DNA from: Bacteroidaceae bacterium
GTDB taxonomy: Bacteria; Bacteroidota; Bacteroidia; Bacteroidales; Bacteroidaceae
Direction: 5' to 3'
DNA: 6,408 nt
Assembly: GCA_017466965.1 (NCBI GenBank)
Contig: JAFTTD010000073.1
Location: 1-6,408 of the forward strand
The notes under the pieces are model-generated. The model searched no databases and had not been told where the DNA came from. It saw only the letters and a program-made list of their open reading frames with translations. Position 1 is the first letter of the stretch; every line of letters starts with the position of its first letter. Shown one piece after another: positions 442-6,408 of the stretch. The position numbers and the translations under genes are program-made.

Positions 442-2898
442 TTACAAATCTTTTGGCTTATACACGTCGTTCCACCATGAGGCATCGTCCTTGAGCCACT
501 TGGCGAACCATGCGTAGATGGTGTTCTGCCAGAGGAGGCGCTTGGTGTAGTCGGTGATATGGTGGTCTTGTCCGGGAACGAGCACCATGGCTGTCTCGCG
601 TCCAAGGAGCTTGAGCGCTGTGTACATCTGGATACTCTCGCCTACAGGCACGTTGTTCTCGGCTTCGCCGTGTAGGAAGAGTATCGGTGTTGTCACCTTA
701 TCGGCATTGAAGAGAGGACTCTGGTCAACGAAAAGTTTCTTGTCAGCCCACGGATAGCTGTTCGCCATTGACACTTCACTGTAGCTGTATCCCCAATAGC
801 CTTCGCCCCAATAGCTGGTGTGGTCGCTGATGCCGGCATGCGAGATGGCTGCGGCGAAGAGGTCGGTGCGTGTTTGCAGATACATTGTCATGAAGCCTCC
901 GTAGCTTGCGCCTATGCAGCCAATCTTCTTGTCGTTGATGAACGGATGTTCCTTGCAGAACTGGCGTGTAGCACCTATGATGTCTTCAGCCACACCTTCG
1001 CCGGCTGTGTTGACGTGGCGTGCGGAGAATTTCTGTCCGAATCCGGTTGCACCGCTCGGGTTAATGACGAGCACTGCATAGCCGAGTGCCGAATAGGCAT
1101 GATGAGGATAACGGCTCTCAAAGTTGCGGCTCGTTGGACTGCAGCCGCCGTAGTAGTTGACAATCATCGACAGCGGTGTCTTGCCGTCGTAATGAGGCGG
1201 CAGATAGTAACGGCAGCAGATGGTGTCGCCCTTTGAGTTGATGTAGTTCCATGCCTTACATTCGCCGAGAGTGATGTCGCTGAGCGTTTCGCTGCTGATG
1301 TCCTCCACGAGTATCGGTTTGAGTTTCTTTGTGTTCATTGTATAGACACGGTCGGAGTTTGATGCGCTCTGTCCGTAGAAAGCGATTGTTGCTCCTGCGT
1401 TTGCCAAAGAGAATCTGTTTATCATCTCCTCAGGAAGCTGGATGCGCTTGATTTCACCATTCTTAGGGTTCATGCGGAAAAGATTGACACAGTCCTTGTC
1501 TTCGGCATTGAAATATATCATTCCGTCGTGTCTGCACCACTCTTCGTTTTGCACACAAGGATTGAAATCCTTTGTCACAGGGCGCACCTTGCGCGATGCA
1601 ATGTCCATAATAAACAGCTGCTTATCAACCATGCTCGGTGTCTGTCCAGCTTCTACATTCATGCCTATGCCGCCAAGGCTTTCAGGCGAACCGCTAATAA
1701 GCACCTCCTTGCCATCGGGCGAGAACGAGGCTGACGAAATGAATCCGTCTCCCTCAACAAGGGTGTCTGTCTGCATCGTTGTGAGGTCGAGACGATAGAC
1801 TGTAGAAAGTGTTGTAGGGCGTTTTGTCAGTCGGCTTTCGCTCTTCATGAGCAGCAGATAGCGGCTGTCGGACGATATGTCTGAAACATAGACGCTGTGG
1901 TAGCCATGTGTAAGTGGCTGCATCAGCCCTGTGGCGAGGTCGTACTTTGCTATTTTCGCTCTGTTTCTCCATCCAGGCTGACGGTCGTCTGGCTCTATCA
2001 CCTCGAAGATTTCCTTTCTTTCCTTTGGTCCTTCCTGAGTGAGGGTGTAGAAAAGAGTCTTCTCATCGGGCGACATGATGAAACTTCCGCCCGGAATGTT
2101 GTCTGCCAGAACGGTCTCCACACGCGTTGCAGGCTCGACTGTAACCAACGACTGTACCCCCTCCGCATTGGTGCGAACGAAGTAGAACTTATCGGAAGCA
2201 GGCATCCATGTTGCAGAGCCAGTGCGTCGCTCCATGAACTTGCCAGTTATGGCATCTCTGATTTCCATGTATGACGCAGAAGCCCCACCCGGACGTGTCT
2301 GGCTATATCTGACAATCATGTACTTGCCGCTTGGTGAAACTCTTACGTCTGTGCATCTGCGTGCGTGCAGAACGTCATAGATGGTATAGGTGCGATTGGC
2401 AGCATCTGTTCCGAGAACGAGTGTCTTACCATTGTTTGCTTCGGCTGTAACCTTGAGGGTATCGTTGCTACCTGGCGAAGAGAGGAACTTGATGACAACT
2501 TCATGGTTTGCAGGTTCAAGCACAATGTTCCGACCAGACTGCTTCACGCCATCCACAAACAGCTGATATTCCTTCAGCCCCTTGACAGAGATATTGGCAG
2601 AAGTGTATTCACTGTTTTTCAATGTGAACCCCACAAGATGGAGGGCATGGGCTGACTCACATCCCGGCAGAACCATGTCAGTTCTGACATCTGCATCCTT
2701 TACAGACTCAAACGACAGGTGTGTGCCAAGAAGTGACGAAACATCAAATTTCTTAGAATTGACATCAACGCTATCCACCATCAATGGCACTGTCAGCTGG
2801 TAAGGACCAGAATAGCGGTAAGCCGACAAGGTTGCCTCTTGTGCATTCATCATTGCTGAGCATCCCGTTGCGGCAAGAATTGTTAATAATCTTTTCAT
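442..2898 (-). CDS. Secreted S9 family (prolyl oligopeptidase-type) serine peptidase
   Basis: This is an 818-residue exported peptidase of the prolyl oligopeptidase/dipeptidyl-peptidase superfamily, expected to cleave short peptides in the periplasm or at the cell surface. A signal peptide covers residues 1 to about 19 (MKRLLTILAA, then a likely cut at MNA/QE); Cys13 in AATGC is a weak alternative lipobox. Residues 20-170 form a beta-rich extension of unknown role. About 175-540 resembles the beta-propeller with repeated SPDG/SPDE-type turns (275-280, 393-396). The C-terminal alpha/beta-hydrolase domain (about 550-805) carries the nucleophile Ser665 in GASYGG, and His779 in GQDHH is the likely catalytic His. 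The catalytic Asp position (HG plus three) is Glu747 in HGEAENNVP, an unusual replacement. The start is set by the signal peptide. The gene stands alone, divergent from GH43, with tandem hairpins at its 3' end. Substrate specificity cannot be read from the sequence. Confidence 0.93.
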   Translation of the reverse strand: MKRLLTILAATGCSAMMNAQEATLSAYRYSGPYQLTVPLMVDSVDVNSKKFDVSSLLGTHLSFESVKDADVRTDMVLPGCESAHALHLVGFTLKNSEYTSANISVKGLKEYQLFVDGVKQSGRNIVLEPANHEVVIKFLSSPGSNDTLKVTAEANNGKTLVLGTDAANRTYTIYDVLHARRCTDVRVSPSGKYMIVRYSQTRPGGASASYMEIRDAITGKFMERRTGSATWMPASDKFYFVRTNAEGVQSLVTVEPATRVETVLADNIPGGSFIMSPDEKTLFYTLTQEGPKERKEIFEVIEPDDRQPGWRNRAKIAKYDLATGLMQPLTHGYHSVYVSDISSDSRYLLLMKSESRLTKRPTTLSTVYRLDLTTMQTDTLVEGDGFISSASFSPDGKEVLISGSPESLGGIGMNVEAGQTPSMVDKQLFIMDIASRKVRPVTKDFNPCVQNEEWCRHDGMIYFNAEDKDCVNLFRMNPKNGEIKRIQLPEEMINRFSLANAGATIAFYGQSASNSDRVYTMNTKKLKPILVEDISSETLSDITLGECKAWNYINSKGDTICCRYYLPPHYDGKTPLSMIVNYYGGCSPTSRNFESRYPHHAYSALGYAVLVINPSGATGFGQKFSARHVNTAGEGVAEDIIGATRQFCKEHPFINDKKIGCIGASYGGFMTMYLQTRTDLFAAAISHAGISDHTSYWGEGYWGYSYSEVSMANSYPWADKKLFVDQSPLFNADKVTTPILFLHGEAENNVPVGESIQMYTALKLLGRETAMVLVPGQDHHITDYTKRLLWQNTIYAWFAKWLKDDASWWNDVYKPKDL

Positions 2899-2943
2899 AT
2901 ATATTTAATTGTTTAAAAATTGTTTTGATATTCGGGAGTTCAG

Positions 2944-3057
2944 GAGTTCAGACGGCGGAACGGAATAGGAGTTCCGCTTGCGACAACTGAAACTTTAGTT
3001 TCACAAAGAAGTGCACTTTAGTGCCCTTACACCACTGGGTGTTTCCTGTGCGAACTC
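2944..3057 (-). repeat. Long copy of a modular palindromic element (peptidase leader)
   Basis: Read on the minus strand, the element opens with GAGTTCGCACAGGAAACA (3057 downward), continues through CCAGTGGTGT, holds a 74 bp cassette (2955-3028), and closes with CGTCTGAACTC (2954-2944). The terminal GAGTTC and GAACTC are complementary and could close a multibranch structure. Inside are four consecutive inverted repeats: ACACC/GGTGT (3029-3042), GCACT/AGTGC (3013-3024), TGAAACT/AGTTTCA (2988-3003) and GCGGAAC/GTTCCGC (2955-2977). If the minus-strand promoter at 3182-3189 is used, all of this lies in the untranslated leader of the peptidase mRNA. The function is unknown; it could be a dispersed non-autonomous repeat or a structured leader RNA. 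Confidence 0.7.
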
Positions 3058-3092
3058 AAAAACTCAAAAACTCAAGAACTTAAAAACTTAAG
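3053..3092. repeat. Octamer satellite, five units
   Basis: Five tandem 8 bp units of consensus AACTCAAA run without gaps: two exact, then AACTCAAG, AACTTAAA and AACTTAAG. The first unit overlaps the edge of the long modular element, so the satellite appears to be part of a repeated module. Such arrays can change unit number by slippage; being noncoding, this would alter leader length or spacing only. Confidence 0.85.
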
Positions 3093-3096
3093 TCGA

Positions 3097-3136
3097 GAGT
3101 TCAGACGACACCACTGGATGTTTCCTGTGCGAACTC
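3097..3136 (-). repeat. Short copy of the modular element lacking the hairpin cassette
   Basis: The same opening block (3136 down to 3108) and the same closing block CGTCTGAACTC (3107-3097) are found 79 and 153 bp, respectively, from their partners in the long copy, but here they are directly joined. The 74 bp cassette of the long copy is absent. The 29 bp opening block differs at one position only (3118 A against 3039 G). On the minus-strand RNA this change turns a C-G pair in the small ACACC/GGTGT-type stem into a U-G wobble, so the stem can still form. Confidence 0.7.
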
Positions 3137-3163
3137 AAAAACTCAAAAACTTAAAAACTTAAA
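3132..3163. repeat. Octamer satellite, four units
   Basis: Four tandem 8 bp units (two AACTCAAA, two AACTTAAA) flank the short modular element exactly as the five-unit array flanks the long one, at an offset of 79 bp. The copy-number difference (four against five) fits replication slippage after duplication of the whole module. Confidence 0.85.
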
Positions 3164-3181
3164 ACGGCTCTTCACATTTTG

Positions 3182-3189
3182 CAAATATA
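3182..3189 (-). promoter_or_regulatory. Candidate Bacteroidota -7 promoter element for the peptidase gene
   Basis: The minus strand reads TATATTTG here, an exact match to the TAnnTTTG consensus of the Bacteroidota primary sigma factor. It is the only exact match I found on this strand in the spacer. The -33 region is not well conserved. Initiation a few bases downstream (about 3176) would give a leader of roughly 275 nt that contains both modular elements and both octamer arrays. The identical TATATTTGC string occurs in the opposite promoter at 3392. Confidence 0.55.
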
Positions 3190-3217
3190 GAAAAAACATC
3201 GGAATAACGGAAAAGAT

Positions 3218-3252
3218 ACATAATACATAATCCATAATTATTAATTCATGAT
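3218..3252. repeat. Degenerate heptamer satellite
   Basis: Five consecutive 7 bp units can be read: ACATAAT twice, then CCATAAT, TATTAAT and TCATGAT. They degrade progressively towards the right end. A related heptamer run (TCATAA type) recurs at 4455-4475 ahead of folP, suggesting a low-complexity sequence family common to spacers of this genome rather than a gene-specific signal. Confidence 0.5.
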
Positions 3253-3260
3253 TAAAAACG

Positions 3261-3326
3261 AGCCTGCGTTTACAAATGTATAAGCCCTCGTTTACATATT
3301 TATGAGCCTGCGTTTAAAATTGTTCT
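3261..3326. repeat. Three 22 bp direct repeats between the divergent promoters
   Basis: The core AGCCTGCGTTTA occurs at 3261 and 3305, and the variant AGCCCTCGTTTA at 3283, with an exact period of 22 bp. The remainder of each unit is AT-rich and less conserved. A 22 bp period is about two helical turns, so all three cores face the same side of the DNA. The array is almost centred between the two candidate -7 elements (about 71 bp from one, 65 bp from the other). It may be an operator for a shared regulator, or another spacer satellite. Confidence 0.7.
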
Positions 3327-3371
3327 GTTTGCTCTTTGCTCCACTATTGACGTTTTTCACAAAAAAACTTC

Positions 3372-3399
3372 ATGTTTCCTAAAAAAACATCTATATTTG
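3372..3399 (+). promoter_or_regulatory. Candidate promoter with overlapping inverted repeat for the GH43 gene
   Basis: TATATTTG at 3392-3399 is an exact match to the Bacteroidota -7 element TAnnTTTG, placed 32 bp before the ATG of the GH43 gene. A perfect inverted repeat, ATGTTT and AAACAT with a 7 bp spacer (3372-3390), abuts it directly and covers the place where the -33 element should be. That position would suit an operator, though the repeat is short and AT-rich. There is no Shine-Dalgarno motif before the ATG; the leader is A/T-rich as is usual in this phylum. Confidence 0.6.
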
Positions 3400-3431
3400 C
3401 ACAAACGCAATAAAATAAATATTATCAATCC

Positions 3432-4382
3432 ATGAAAAAAGCATTATTTCTTGCCTTAACAGGTATTTCATTAATCATTACCGGCTGCAAACAGACAGCC
3501 ACTACTAACGAGACAAGCAACAAGGAAGTGTATCTGTTCTCATATTTCAATGGAAACGGAGACGGTCTGCACCTTGCCTACAGTGAGGACGGATTGACTT
3601 GGAACGCACTTCGCAATGACACCGTATGGCTCAAGCCTGAAATAGGAAAAGACAAGCTGATGCGCGACCCAAGCATAGTGCAGGATGAAGAAGGTACATT
3701 CCACATGGTATGGACAAGCGGATGGTGGGACCAAGGCATAGGATATGCTTCATCGAAAGACCTCATCAACTGGTCTGAACAGCAGGACATTCCAGTAATG
3801 AAGAATTTTGAGGGAACAAAAAACACTTGGGCTCCTGAACTGTTCTACGACAAGACAGACAAGACTTTCTACATATTCTGGGCATCAACTGTACCCGGCG
3901 CATTTCCAGACCTTCCTACATCGGAGAGTGAGAAGGGCATGAACCACCGCCAATACTACGTGACAACAAAAGACTTCAAGACATTCAGCGAAACAAAGCT
4001 GTTCTTTGAGCCTGGATTCTCAGTAATTGACGGATGCATACTTCAGAAAGACGACATATTCTACCTGTTCGTGAAGAACGAAAACTCAGCTCCGGCAGAA
4101 AAGAATATCCGCCTAACACAAAACTCGAAGCCTTATGACTTCCCTACAGAAGTGTCAGCTCCTATCACAGGCGACTACTGGGCTGAGGGCCCTACTCCGC
4201 TCATCGTAGGAGACTACGTATATGTATATTTCGACAAATATACTCAGGGCAAATACGGAGCAATTCGTTCAAAAGACATGAAAAACTGGGAAGACGTATC
4301 TGACTCTGTAACATTCCCTAAGGGCATACGCCACGGAACAGCATTTACGGTAAATGCTGAAGTAGTGGAAAAGTTGAAATGA
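3432..4382 (+). CDS. Glycoside hydrolase family 43-type lipoprotein
   Basis: This 316-residue protein has the five-bladed beta-propeller signature of GH43-type enzymes, which act on arabinose- or xylose-containing side chains. A lipoprotein signal ends at Cys19 (LIITGC); the residues after it (KQTATTNE) lack a strong acidic surface-export motif, so a periplasmic location is plausible. Candidate catalytic residues are Asp79 in MRDPSI (base), Asp200 in VIDG (pKa modulator) and Glu252 in AEGP (acid). WAPELF (133-138) and RHGT (300-303) are further family-like motifs, and the paired patterns SEDGLTW, SKDLINW, TKDFKTF and SKDMKNW mark propeller blades. Length is full for a single-domain member. 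The exact subfamily and substrate are not determinable by eye. It is transcribed from the promoter at 3392 and may continue into folP, since no good terminator follows. Confidence 0.85.
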   Translation: MKKALFLALTGISLIITGCKQTATTNETSNKEVYLFSYFNGNGDGLHLAYSEDGLTWNALRNDTVWLKPEIGKDKLMRDPSIVQDEEGTFHMVWTSGWWDQGIGYASSKDLINWSEQQDIPVMKNFEGTKNTWAPELFYDKTDKTFYIFWASTVPGAFPDLPTSESEKGMNHRQYYVTTKDFKTFSETKLFFEPGFSVIDGCILQKDDIFYLFVKNENSAPAEKNIRLTQNSKPYDFPTEVSAPITGDYWAEGPTPLIVGDYVYVYFDKYTQGKYGAIRSKDMKNWEDVSDSVTFPKGIRHGTAFTVNAEVVEKLK

Positions 4383-5331: not shown

Positions 5332-6107
5332 TTGAATTCGGCTTGAAAGATGCCATTGACATTTTATGCGTGGCTTTTCTCTTATACTATATATATAGAC
5401 TGATGAAGGACTCAGGGTCGCTCTATGTCTTCTACGGAGTACTGATGTTCATCATCACATGGATATTCGTTTCCCAAGTATTTGAAATGAAACTAATGGG
5501 AAGCATCTTCGACAAGCTCGTAAGCGTGGGAGCATTAGCAATCATAATTTTGTTCCAGGAAGACATCAGGCGTTTCTTCATATCACTCGGCTCGCACAGG
5601 AAACTAACTATACTTAGAAGAGTTTTTCGCAAGAAAAAAGAAAAAGAAGCAGACGACATAAACCCGCTGGTACTACAAATAGTAATGGCATGCGACTATA
5701 TGAGCAAGAACTTTATTGGCGCCTTAATAGTCATTGAACGAGAAATACCATTAAAGGAAATAATAAAATCTGGAGAATATATAGATGCAAAAATAAACAC
5801 CGAACTAATAAAAAACATATTTTTCAAAAACAGCCCGCTCCACGACGGAGCCATGATTATCAGCCATAACAGAATAACAGCCGCAGGCTGCATACTACCA
5901 GTATCACATAGCTTAAACATCCCTAAAGACTTAGGCCTCAGACACAGAGCCGCGCTCGGAATAAGCCAGGAAAGCGATGCTATAGCAGTAATAGTGTCAG
6001 AAGAGACAGGCTCAATATCAATAGCCCAGAGGGGAGACTTCAAGCTGCATCTTGCAGGCAACGAACTAGAAAGCTATCTGTCGGAGGCTCTTAGCAAGAA
6101 AAGATAA
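5328..6107 (+). CDS. cdaA: Membrane diadenylate cyclase CdaA (DisA_N domain)
   Basis: CdaA makes cyclic di-AMP from two ATP at the inner membrane; this messenger controls potassium and osmotic balance and envelope stress in many bacteria. The 259-residue protein has three N-terminal hydrophobic segments (about 8-24, 33-51 and 62-77), a basic linker (RRVFRKKKEK, 97-106), and the cyclase domain with DGA (173-175, in LHDGAMII), RHRAALG (205-211) and SEETGSIS (224-231). All hallmark residues are present, so it should be active. I chose the ATG at 5328, overlapping the folP stop by 4 bp, because the protein then starts MIEFGLKD as expected for the family. An in-frame ATG at 5277 would add 17 polar residues of poor quality. 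No cdaR or glmM neighbour is seen; partnership with folP is, from memory, the usual Bacteroidota arrangement. Confidence 0.95.
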   Translation: MIEFGLKDAIDILCVAFLLYYIYRLMKDSGSLYVFYGVLMFIITWIFVSQVFEMKLMGSIFDKLVSVGALAIIILFQEDIRRFFISLGSHRKLTILRRVFRKKKEKEADDINPLVLQIVMACDYMSKNFIGALIVIEREIPLKEIIKSGEYIDAKINTELIKNIFFKNSPLHDGAMIISHNRITAAGCILPVSHSLNIPKDLGLRHRAALGISQESDAIAVIVSEETGSISIAQRGDFKLHLAGNELESYLSEALSKKR

Positions 6108-6166: not shown

Positions 6167-6408
6167 ATGAAAACATAATTACGTTTTGTCTTTTTAGCTG
6201 CAATTATAGCAAGTTGCTCACCATCAAAAACCCAAAACAAATGGAGCATGCCATCACAGGAATCCATCCTCAAATCAATGGAAACAGCAAACGACTACTT
6301 CATAGCAAAGTATCCAGACCCAGGCAAGGATACCTTTGTAAAGAAAGTACGCCCAAGCAACCTATGGACAAGAGGAGTTTATTTTGAAGGATTGTATGCT
6401 CTTACAGA
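6167..6408 (+). pseudogene. GH88/GH105-type glycosidase lipoprotein with a TAA at codon 4, cut by the window end
   Basis: The frame opens ATG AAA ACA and then meets TAA at 6176-6178. It continues open to the window end with LRFVFLAAIIASC, a good lipoprotein signal (hydrophobic stretch, lipobox IASC, Cys at codon 17), followed by a mature region whose VRPSNLWTRGVYFEGLYAL segment is typical of unsaturated uronyl or rhamnogalacturonyl hydrolases (Pfam Glyco_hydro_88). Such enzymes remove the unsaturated sugar left by pectin or glycosaminoglycan lyases. The basic n-region lies before the stop and the hydrophobic core after it, so the stop sits inside one signal peptide. One base change would restore it (for example TAA from CAA or AAA). 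The next in-frame ATG (6248, codon 28) would yield a protein without export signal. It begins 59 bp after cdaA and could be co-transcribed. A sequencing error is possible. Confidence 0.75.

Follow-up and report, generated by a model that had tools for sequence, protein, structure and literature searches.

A hairpin element with octamer arms, present as a complete and a cassette-less copy in the predicted leader of an S9 peptidase gene

Introduction

The closest counterparts of the element described here come from repeat families and from leader RNAs. BrickBuilt, a MITE of Porphyromonas gingivalis, is an intergenic Bacteroidales element that combines a short tandem repeat with a non-repetitive leader and tail and occurs in copies with and without intact ends; the available portion of its description gives 23-nt repeats, 12-nt terminal inverted repeats like those of IS5-family elements, and 19 copies in one genome (PMC4596501). 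The GTAG- and CGTC-tagged REPs are short intergenic palindromes, often paired and plausibly transcribed, and CGTC-type REPs were reported in Bacteroidetes, among five phyla (PMC3733652, in the sections accessible). The structures flanking TnpA-Y1 genes of subclass 2.6 are non-canonical Bacteroidetes hairpins with copies elsewhere in the genome (PMC6006769, accessible in part). For gut bacteria, candidate structured RNAs and long 5′ leaders have also been described; such leaders are possibly structured and located downstream of a TAnnTTTG promoter (PMC8040213 and PMC7366714, as far as their available text goes).

The locus presented here lies in a window of 6,408 nucleotides, which is the whole stretch of DNA that was analysed, and shares some of the listed features with each of these systems. 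It differs from BrickBuilt by repeats of only 8 nt, a closing stem of 6-7 bp, the lack of a known parent and the single locus seen, and from the tagged REPs by several hairpins that form one closed unit. The comparison with the subclass 2.6 structures is one of descriptions only, and no transposase, Y1 type included, is present among the four window proteins scanned. From the catalogued structured RNAs the element is distinguished by the lack of an Rfam match.

Results

Coordinates refer to the window, and all parts of the element are read on the minus strand, which is the sense strand of the peptidase gene. The short copy starts with an octamer array of AAGTTTTT / GAGTTTTT units (3132..3164; TRF period 8, 4.1 copies), followed by the opening block GAGTTCGCACAGGAAACA (3119..3136), by CCAGTGGTGT (3108-3117) and by the closing block CGTCTGAACTC (3097..3107). 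The complete copy has the same order, consisting of an octamer array (3053..3088; TRF period 8, 4.5 copies), GAGTTCGCACAGGAAACA (3040..3057), CCAGTGGTGT (3029-3038), a 74-bp cassette of three hairpins (2955..3028) and CGTCTGAACTC (2944..2954), with exact matches for all blocks in both copies. This twofold order of octamer array, opening block and closing block had been given in a preliminary description of the locus and was borne out, as was the cassette size. The opening block and CCAGTGGTGT are both present as described, but they are not contiguous, and the single base between them is one of the three positions that differ between the copies. A third octamer array of CTGAACTC units, which was absent from that description, overlaps the closing block at the distal end of the complete copy (2931..2951; TRF period 8, 2.6 copies). 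The complete unit is therefore flanked by octamers that face each other in inverted orientation.

The two copies share 54 of 57 positions (3029-3085 versus 3108-3164, 95% identical) and the identical 11-bp closing block, which agrees with the earlier statement that they are near identical outside the cassette. All three differences are transitions (3039/3118, 3073/3152 and 3076/3155). The short copy lacks the cassette precisely at GAGTTCAGACG / ACACC, and there is no microhomology at the cassette junctions, i.e. no common letters on either side that would mark slippage. The longest exact repeat of the intergenic region has 33 bp compared to 7-15 bp in 1000 dinucleotide shuffles, the closing 11-mer arose in one of 20000 shuffles of 2899-3028, and the three-unit octamer pattern matches five times in the window at an expectation of 0.00. 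The array of the short copy has a lag-8 identity of 0.86 across 3131-3166. Chance does not explain the duplicated module. Exact block matches, identity and shuffles together support the proposal of a duplicated module with a cassette that is present or absent at a precise junction.

In the sense direction the complete module (2944-3057) folds into four hairpins enclosed by stem P1 (GAGTTCG/TGAACTC) and by an outer octamer helix P0. The 5′ side of P1 is the GAGTTCG of the opening block (3057-3051), which pairs with the closing block as 3′ side (pair probability 0.61-0.71), while P0 is formed by the octamer arrays of opposite sides (3065-3060 with 2936-2941, probability 0.57-0.60). Hairpin Hd (3029..3042, sense ACACC-CAGT-GGTGT) reaches 0.78-0.84. 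The cassette hairpins are Hc (3009-3028), Hb (2978-3006) and Ha (2955-2977), of which the outer two touch the cassette borders; at the outer end of Hc the pairs are weak (0.36-0.48). The energy of the module is -37.0 versus a shuffle mean of -26.5 (z -2.91), and 3 of 400 shuffles fold as well. For comparison, the lowest z among 56 adjacent 114-nt minus-strand segments, cut from the whole window regardless of the module and folded with 40 shuffles each, was -2.22. The cassette alone yields z -2.89 in sense and -3.11 in antisense direction (4/400 and 1/400 shuffles as good). The short copy has z -0.83 and -0.81 on its two strands (74/400 and 78/400), and its Hd (3108..3121, sense ACATC-CAGT-GGTGT), which contains CCAGTGGTGT, shows a pair probability of just 0.23-0.25. 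In the ensemble of 2869-3175, P1 has a probability of about 0.7 in the complete and about 0.2 in the short copy, and pairings across the two copies reach 0.14-0.21 each. The structure closed by GAGTTC/GAACTC, as suggested in the preliminary description, was therefore recovered for the complete copy (z about -2.9), but not for the short copy, which does not exceed its shuffles (z about -0.8).

The antisense strand of the complete module folds about equally well with RNA parameters (z -2.86, 2/400 shuffles as good). This is as expected of a DNA palindrome, and structure alone is thus no proof of an RNA element. Over the whole leader the sense strand has z -2.31 versus -1.83 for antisense. Folding with DNA parameters again yields a closed P1 for the sense strand (-20.5), but not in the best plus-strand fold (-19.5). 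At the sequence level, the sole hint for the sense strand is a C-to-U exchange in Hd, which keeps a G-U pair there, whereas the opposite strand would have C-A; this site is the single informative pair between the copies and is altered on one side only. Predicted fold energies thus favour the sense strand of the leader by a small margin, and for the module they do not discriminate between an RNA and a DNA palindrome.

The gene downstream (442..2898, minus strand) encodes an S9 prolyl oligopeptidase family protein of 818 amino acids (PF00326, E 1.4e-41) with a start that by eye resembles a signal peptide. As a predicted sigma-ABfr -7 box of the peptidase promoter, TATATTTG (3182..3189, minus strand) matches the consensus TAnnTTTG, which is taken from the available part of PMC7366714, and no clear TTTG was found at -33. 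The pattern TANNTTTGC (3181-3189, minus strand) occurs three times in the window versus 1.17 expected, a number reached in 26/200 shuffles. TAnnTTTG has eight occurrences across both strands of the window, including a further minus-strand one upstream at 3280, and the consensus scan detected none between the box at 3182..3189 and the peptidase start codon. Although weak evidence by itself, this box is made plausible by its position and by a matching box at 3392, before the divergent gene. Transcription of the peptidase gene would then start near 3175, corresponding to a leader of about 277 nt, or of about 40 nt without 2934-3168. Leaders of B. thetaiotaomicron have a median of 32 nt, and 13.5% of the mRNAs exceed 100 nt (PMC7366714, in its accessible text). 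Since a leader without the element would be near this median, the element looks added to an ordinary leader, which is an argument and no proof.

The element lies between the promoter, which is a consensus match, and the start codon on the same strand, and is therefore probably transcribed within an unusually long 5′ leader. The leader position that had been proposed earlier is in line with this arrangement. A promoter and terminator scan of 2850-3450 returned no terminators and three sites resembling sigma-70 type promoters, each of them on the plus strand. Downstream of the peptidase gene (340-436) two hairpins are visible by eye, namely GAGGCAT/ATGCCTC (340-364) and a 17-bp perfect stem CTTTTTGCCTTTTTGAG/CTCAAAAAGGCAAAAAG (393-436), which probably represent its terminator.

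The divergent gene, behind which folP and cdaA are located, encodes a GH43-like protein. Its upstream region contains three direct repeats (GAGCCTGCGTTTAC type, each about 20 bp) at 22-bp spacing (3260-3323); these lie two helical turns apart and are candidate binding sites of a regulator. TCGCACAGGAAAC, 13 bases of the opening block, is found again inside cdaA (5592-5604, plus strand), a match that was picked post hoc and for which a rough estimate gives a chance of about 2% for any 13-mer of the element. The fourth codon of a lipoprotein-like ORF start (6167-6408) is an in-frame TAA, after which the frame is open through 6406; this may reflect a wrong start, an error or a broken gene.

The closest relative of the peptidase is 98% identical and belongs to a cluster of seven sequences (P0001), while the other 119 of the 120 relatives listed share at most 66% identity. 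Where an organism is named among the relatives listed, it is a MAG of Bacteroidaceae, Bacteroides or Parabacteroides. A CdaA of 100% identity belongs to a cluster (P0122) that has ncbi, lgn and ena sources and a longest contig of 149 kb. Among the CdaA relatives with an organism name, the nearest carries a Roseburia MAG label (81%, P0128), which we have taken as a mislabelled bin; the next names are Bacteroidaceae, from 75%. CdaA is 63.8% identical to the protein of Phocaeicola massiliensis, 63.6% to that of Bacteroides finegoldii and 58.7% to that of Prevotella sp. oral taxon 299. The host thus looks like a Bacteroidaceae-type organism whose CdaA resembles those of Bacteroides and Phocaeicola more closely than that of the sole Prevotella record compared. 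The assumption of a Prevotella host is unsupported by these identities and by the names of the peptidase relatives, if still conceivable.

In agreement with the earlier statement that the element resembles no known riboswitch, Rfam gave no match up to E 1 in 2899-3190. The 12 weak matches up to E 5 in the whole window are all outside this region, and 11 of them overlap the stretch 340-436. An exact search of the species-genome collection with the 18-mer opening block, a scan that misses diverged copies and contigs under 3,000 bases, returned six contigs, none from Bacteroidota according to their titles (Acetobacter, Gluconacetobacter, Deltaproteobacterium, Catenuloplanes, Nitrospira, Xanthobacteraceae), which were judged chance matches. 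Four Bacteroidota records of the plasmid collection, out of six that were listed, amount to 2.29 Mb, including a 1.77-Mb Prevotella record, and are no survey; they contain neither three-unit octamer arrays nor opening blocks with CCAGTGGTGT at up to three mismatches.

The exact opening block was also present in two viral contigs, both times apparently within the same phage gene, and these matches were rejected. Among viral contigs, GCGAACTCAAAAACTCAA was found in two with one octamer pair and no module, GAACTYAARAACTYAARAACTYAA in one as array only, GGAGTTYAGGAGTTYAG in 11 with octamers and no module in the flanks, and ACACCACTGGNTGTTTCC and the left-junction pattern in none. A palindrome like Hb occurs in 19 viral contigs, which were dismissed as gene-like by eye and lack octamer arrays within 110 bases on each side, and alignment of the peptidase to the viral contigs gave 18 pattern stretches and no relative. 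Neither megablast of the window versus phages nor blastn of 2930-3420 versus plasmids (E 1e-5) produced a match. A permissive blastn of 2930-3180 (E cut-off 10) matched 12 records among the phages and 16 among the plasmids, each covering at most 24% of the query. The best phage match, Vibrio phage CHOED (E 6e-3, 59 bases of cassette and Hd), was rejected for its location inside an annotated coding gene. Among the 16 plasmid matches, 12 are confined or almost confined to the octamer array (the best being Paraclostridium, E 5e-3), and the other four are 20-base matches within the cassette. The element and the letters GCACAGGAAACACC were not found in the literature searched, a search outside of which most subscription journals lie.

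Octamer arrays with at least three AACTY units in register occur in 6 of 48 loci examined (L014, L036, L037, L040, L041 and L044), which is no rate, as the loci were partly selected for such motifs. In the viral contigs L037 and L044, AACTCC arrays (6189-6217 and 1101-1121) precede an ORF start by 9 and 5 nt, respectively, in the orientation of the array nearest to the peptidase start; the L037 array also overlaps a mechanically called ORF of the opposite strand. Such a nearby start is lacking in L014 and L041, the L040 array is inside ORFs, and L036 appears coding by eye. Two AACTCC-type units are visible by eye about 8 nt before an ATG in the viral contig L035, and L041, likewise viral, contains a long octamer-rich stretch outside ORFs (4150-4305) with AACTC-type and GAGTT-type units, partly inverted. 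All that these loci show is that unrelated DNA lacking the module can have similar octamers.

Discussion

We tentatively favour a palindromic, non-coding intergenic repeat of the REP/MITE-like kind, with octamer arms, that sits in the peptidase leader and has been duplicated in part. Inverted octamer arms (GAGTT.. and, opposite to it, ..AACTC) would enclose a row of hairpins, and the leader would harbour one complete unit and, beside it, a tandem partial copy without the three inner hairpins. The element would have arrived as an element and not as part of the native leader, and further copies would be expected in the host. Once transcribed, it may alter stability or translation of the peptidase mRNA. 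The pairing of the octamer arms as P0 and P1 on the sense strand, a cassette consisting of a row of whole hairpins that is missing without microhomology from the short copy, and the drop of the predicted leader to ordinary length without the element are in favour of such a repeat, as are the arrays of the same core in front of ORF starts in L037 and L044. On the other hand, no second locus appeared in the viral, phage and plasmid searches, in the four Bacteroidota records or in the exact scan of the species genomes, and closure of P1 on the sense strand only (DNA parameters) as well as the difference in z between the strands of the leader argue against a symmetric DNA palindrome.

Assignment to a described family is not supported. 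A CGTC-tagged REP was a serious candidate, since CGTC abuts both hairpins, but was rejected on tag position and stem. In our reading of the available part of PMC3733652 the tag precedes the stem, whereas here CGTC follows the hairpin in sense direction (2951-2954 after Ha, 3104-3107 after Hd) and the opposite strand of these sites reads GACG. The same source, as far as available, describes for CGTC-type REPs a stem of 8-9 bp beginning with A/T pairs, a loop of 4-5 and a CCA-like tail; Ha has 7 bp starting with G-C and a 9-nt loop, and Hd has 5 bp. The candidate terminal inverted repeats GAGTTC/GAACTC comprise 6 bp (7 with the sense G-T pair) and are extended by octamers; they are shorter than the 12 nt given for the P. 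gingivalis elements in the accessible text. Membership among MITEs is also unsupported, since no target-site duplication is present: the longest common word of 2916-2945 and 3156-3190 is the 5-bp TTTTG (at 2923 and 3177), away from the element ends. Together with the lack of a transposase among the four window proteins, this also weighs against a repeat element as such.

We regard it as unlikely that the element is a cis-regulatory leader RNA dedicated to the peptidase gene. The complete copy would form a five-stem closed structure (P1, Hd, Hc, Hb and Ha), and the short copy would supply alternative stem partners, thereby tuning folding, mRNA stability or translation. The position wholly between predicted promoter and start codon, the lower z of the sense leader, the G-U pair kept in Hd and the alternative pairings between the copies are all compatible with such a function. 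However, the module folds equally well in antisense direction with RNA parameters, the one informative site is changed on one side only, the short copy is no better than shuffles, and Rfam has no match. A more specific version, in which the element belongs to a new Bacteroidota class of leader RNA, with octamer arrays as interchangeable closing-stem arms, the cassette-less copy as a decoy for the same arms and a two-state switch set by array register, appears distinctly improbable.

The two copies could also have arisen by purely local replication slippage and unequal exchange at octamer arrays and hairpins, with neither a dispersed family nor a selected function behind them, an origin that we likewise consider doubtful. 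DNA that is rich in hairpins tends to undergo deletions at hairpin bases, the copies are arranged head to tail between octamers, unrelated DNA lacking the module also contains octamer arrays, and the viral, species-genome, phage, plasmid and four-record searches revealed no other copy. Slippage deletions, however, usually leave microhomology, of which the cassette junction has none, and a random spacer is not expected to give a closed five-stem fold at z -2.9. A leader-peptide attenuator built on AGGAAACA and a following GTG GTG, with an ORF of eight codons in the short and GTG GTG TAA in the complete copy, is hardly credible, since the ORFs are too short to exceed chance and have no amino-acid-sensing codon bias, and 2850-3450 contains no terminator-like site, even though sense GTGGTGTCGTCTGAACTCTCGACTTAA and GTGGTGTAA follow AGGAAACAYCCA and some long Bacteroides leaders contain short ORFs according to the available text of PMC7366714.

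To our knowledge, only few regulatory RNAs are known in Bacteroidota, and if the element acts as a leader RNA it would be a new kind of regulatory RNA in this phylum. As it stands, one locus with two copies defines an architecture and not a family. If the favoured repeat element has dispersed copies, these would constitute a Bacteroidaceae family of palindromic repeats in which octamer units are added to the arms and the hairpin core is gained or lost as a whole, located in leaders where expression can be rewired.
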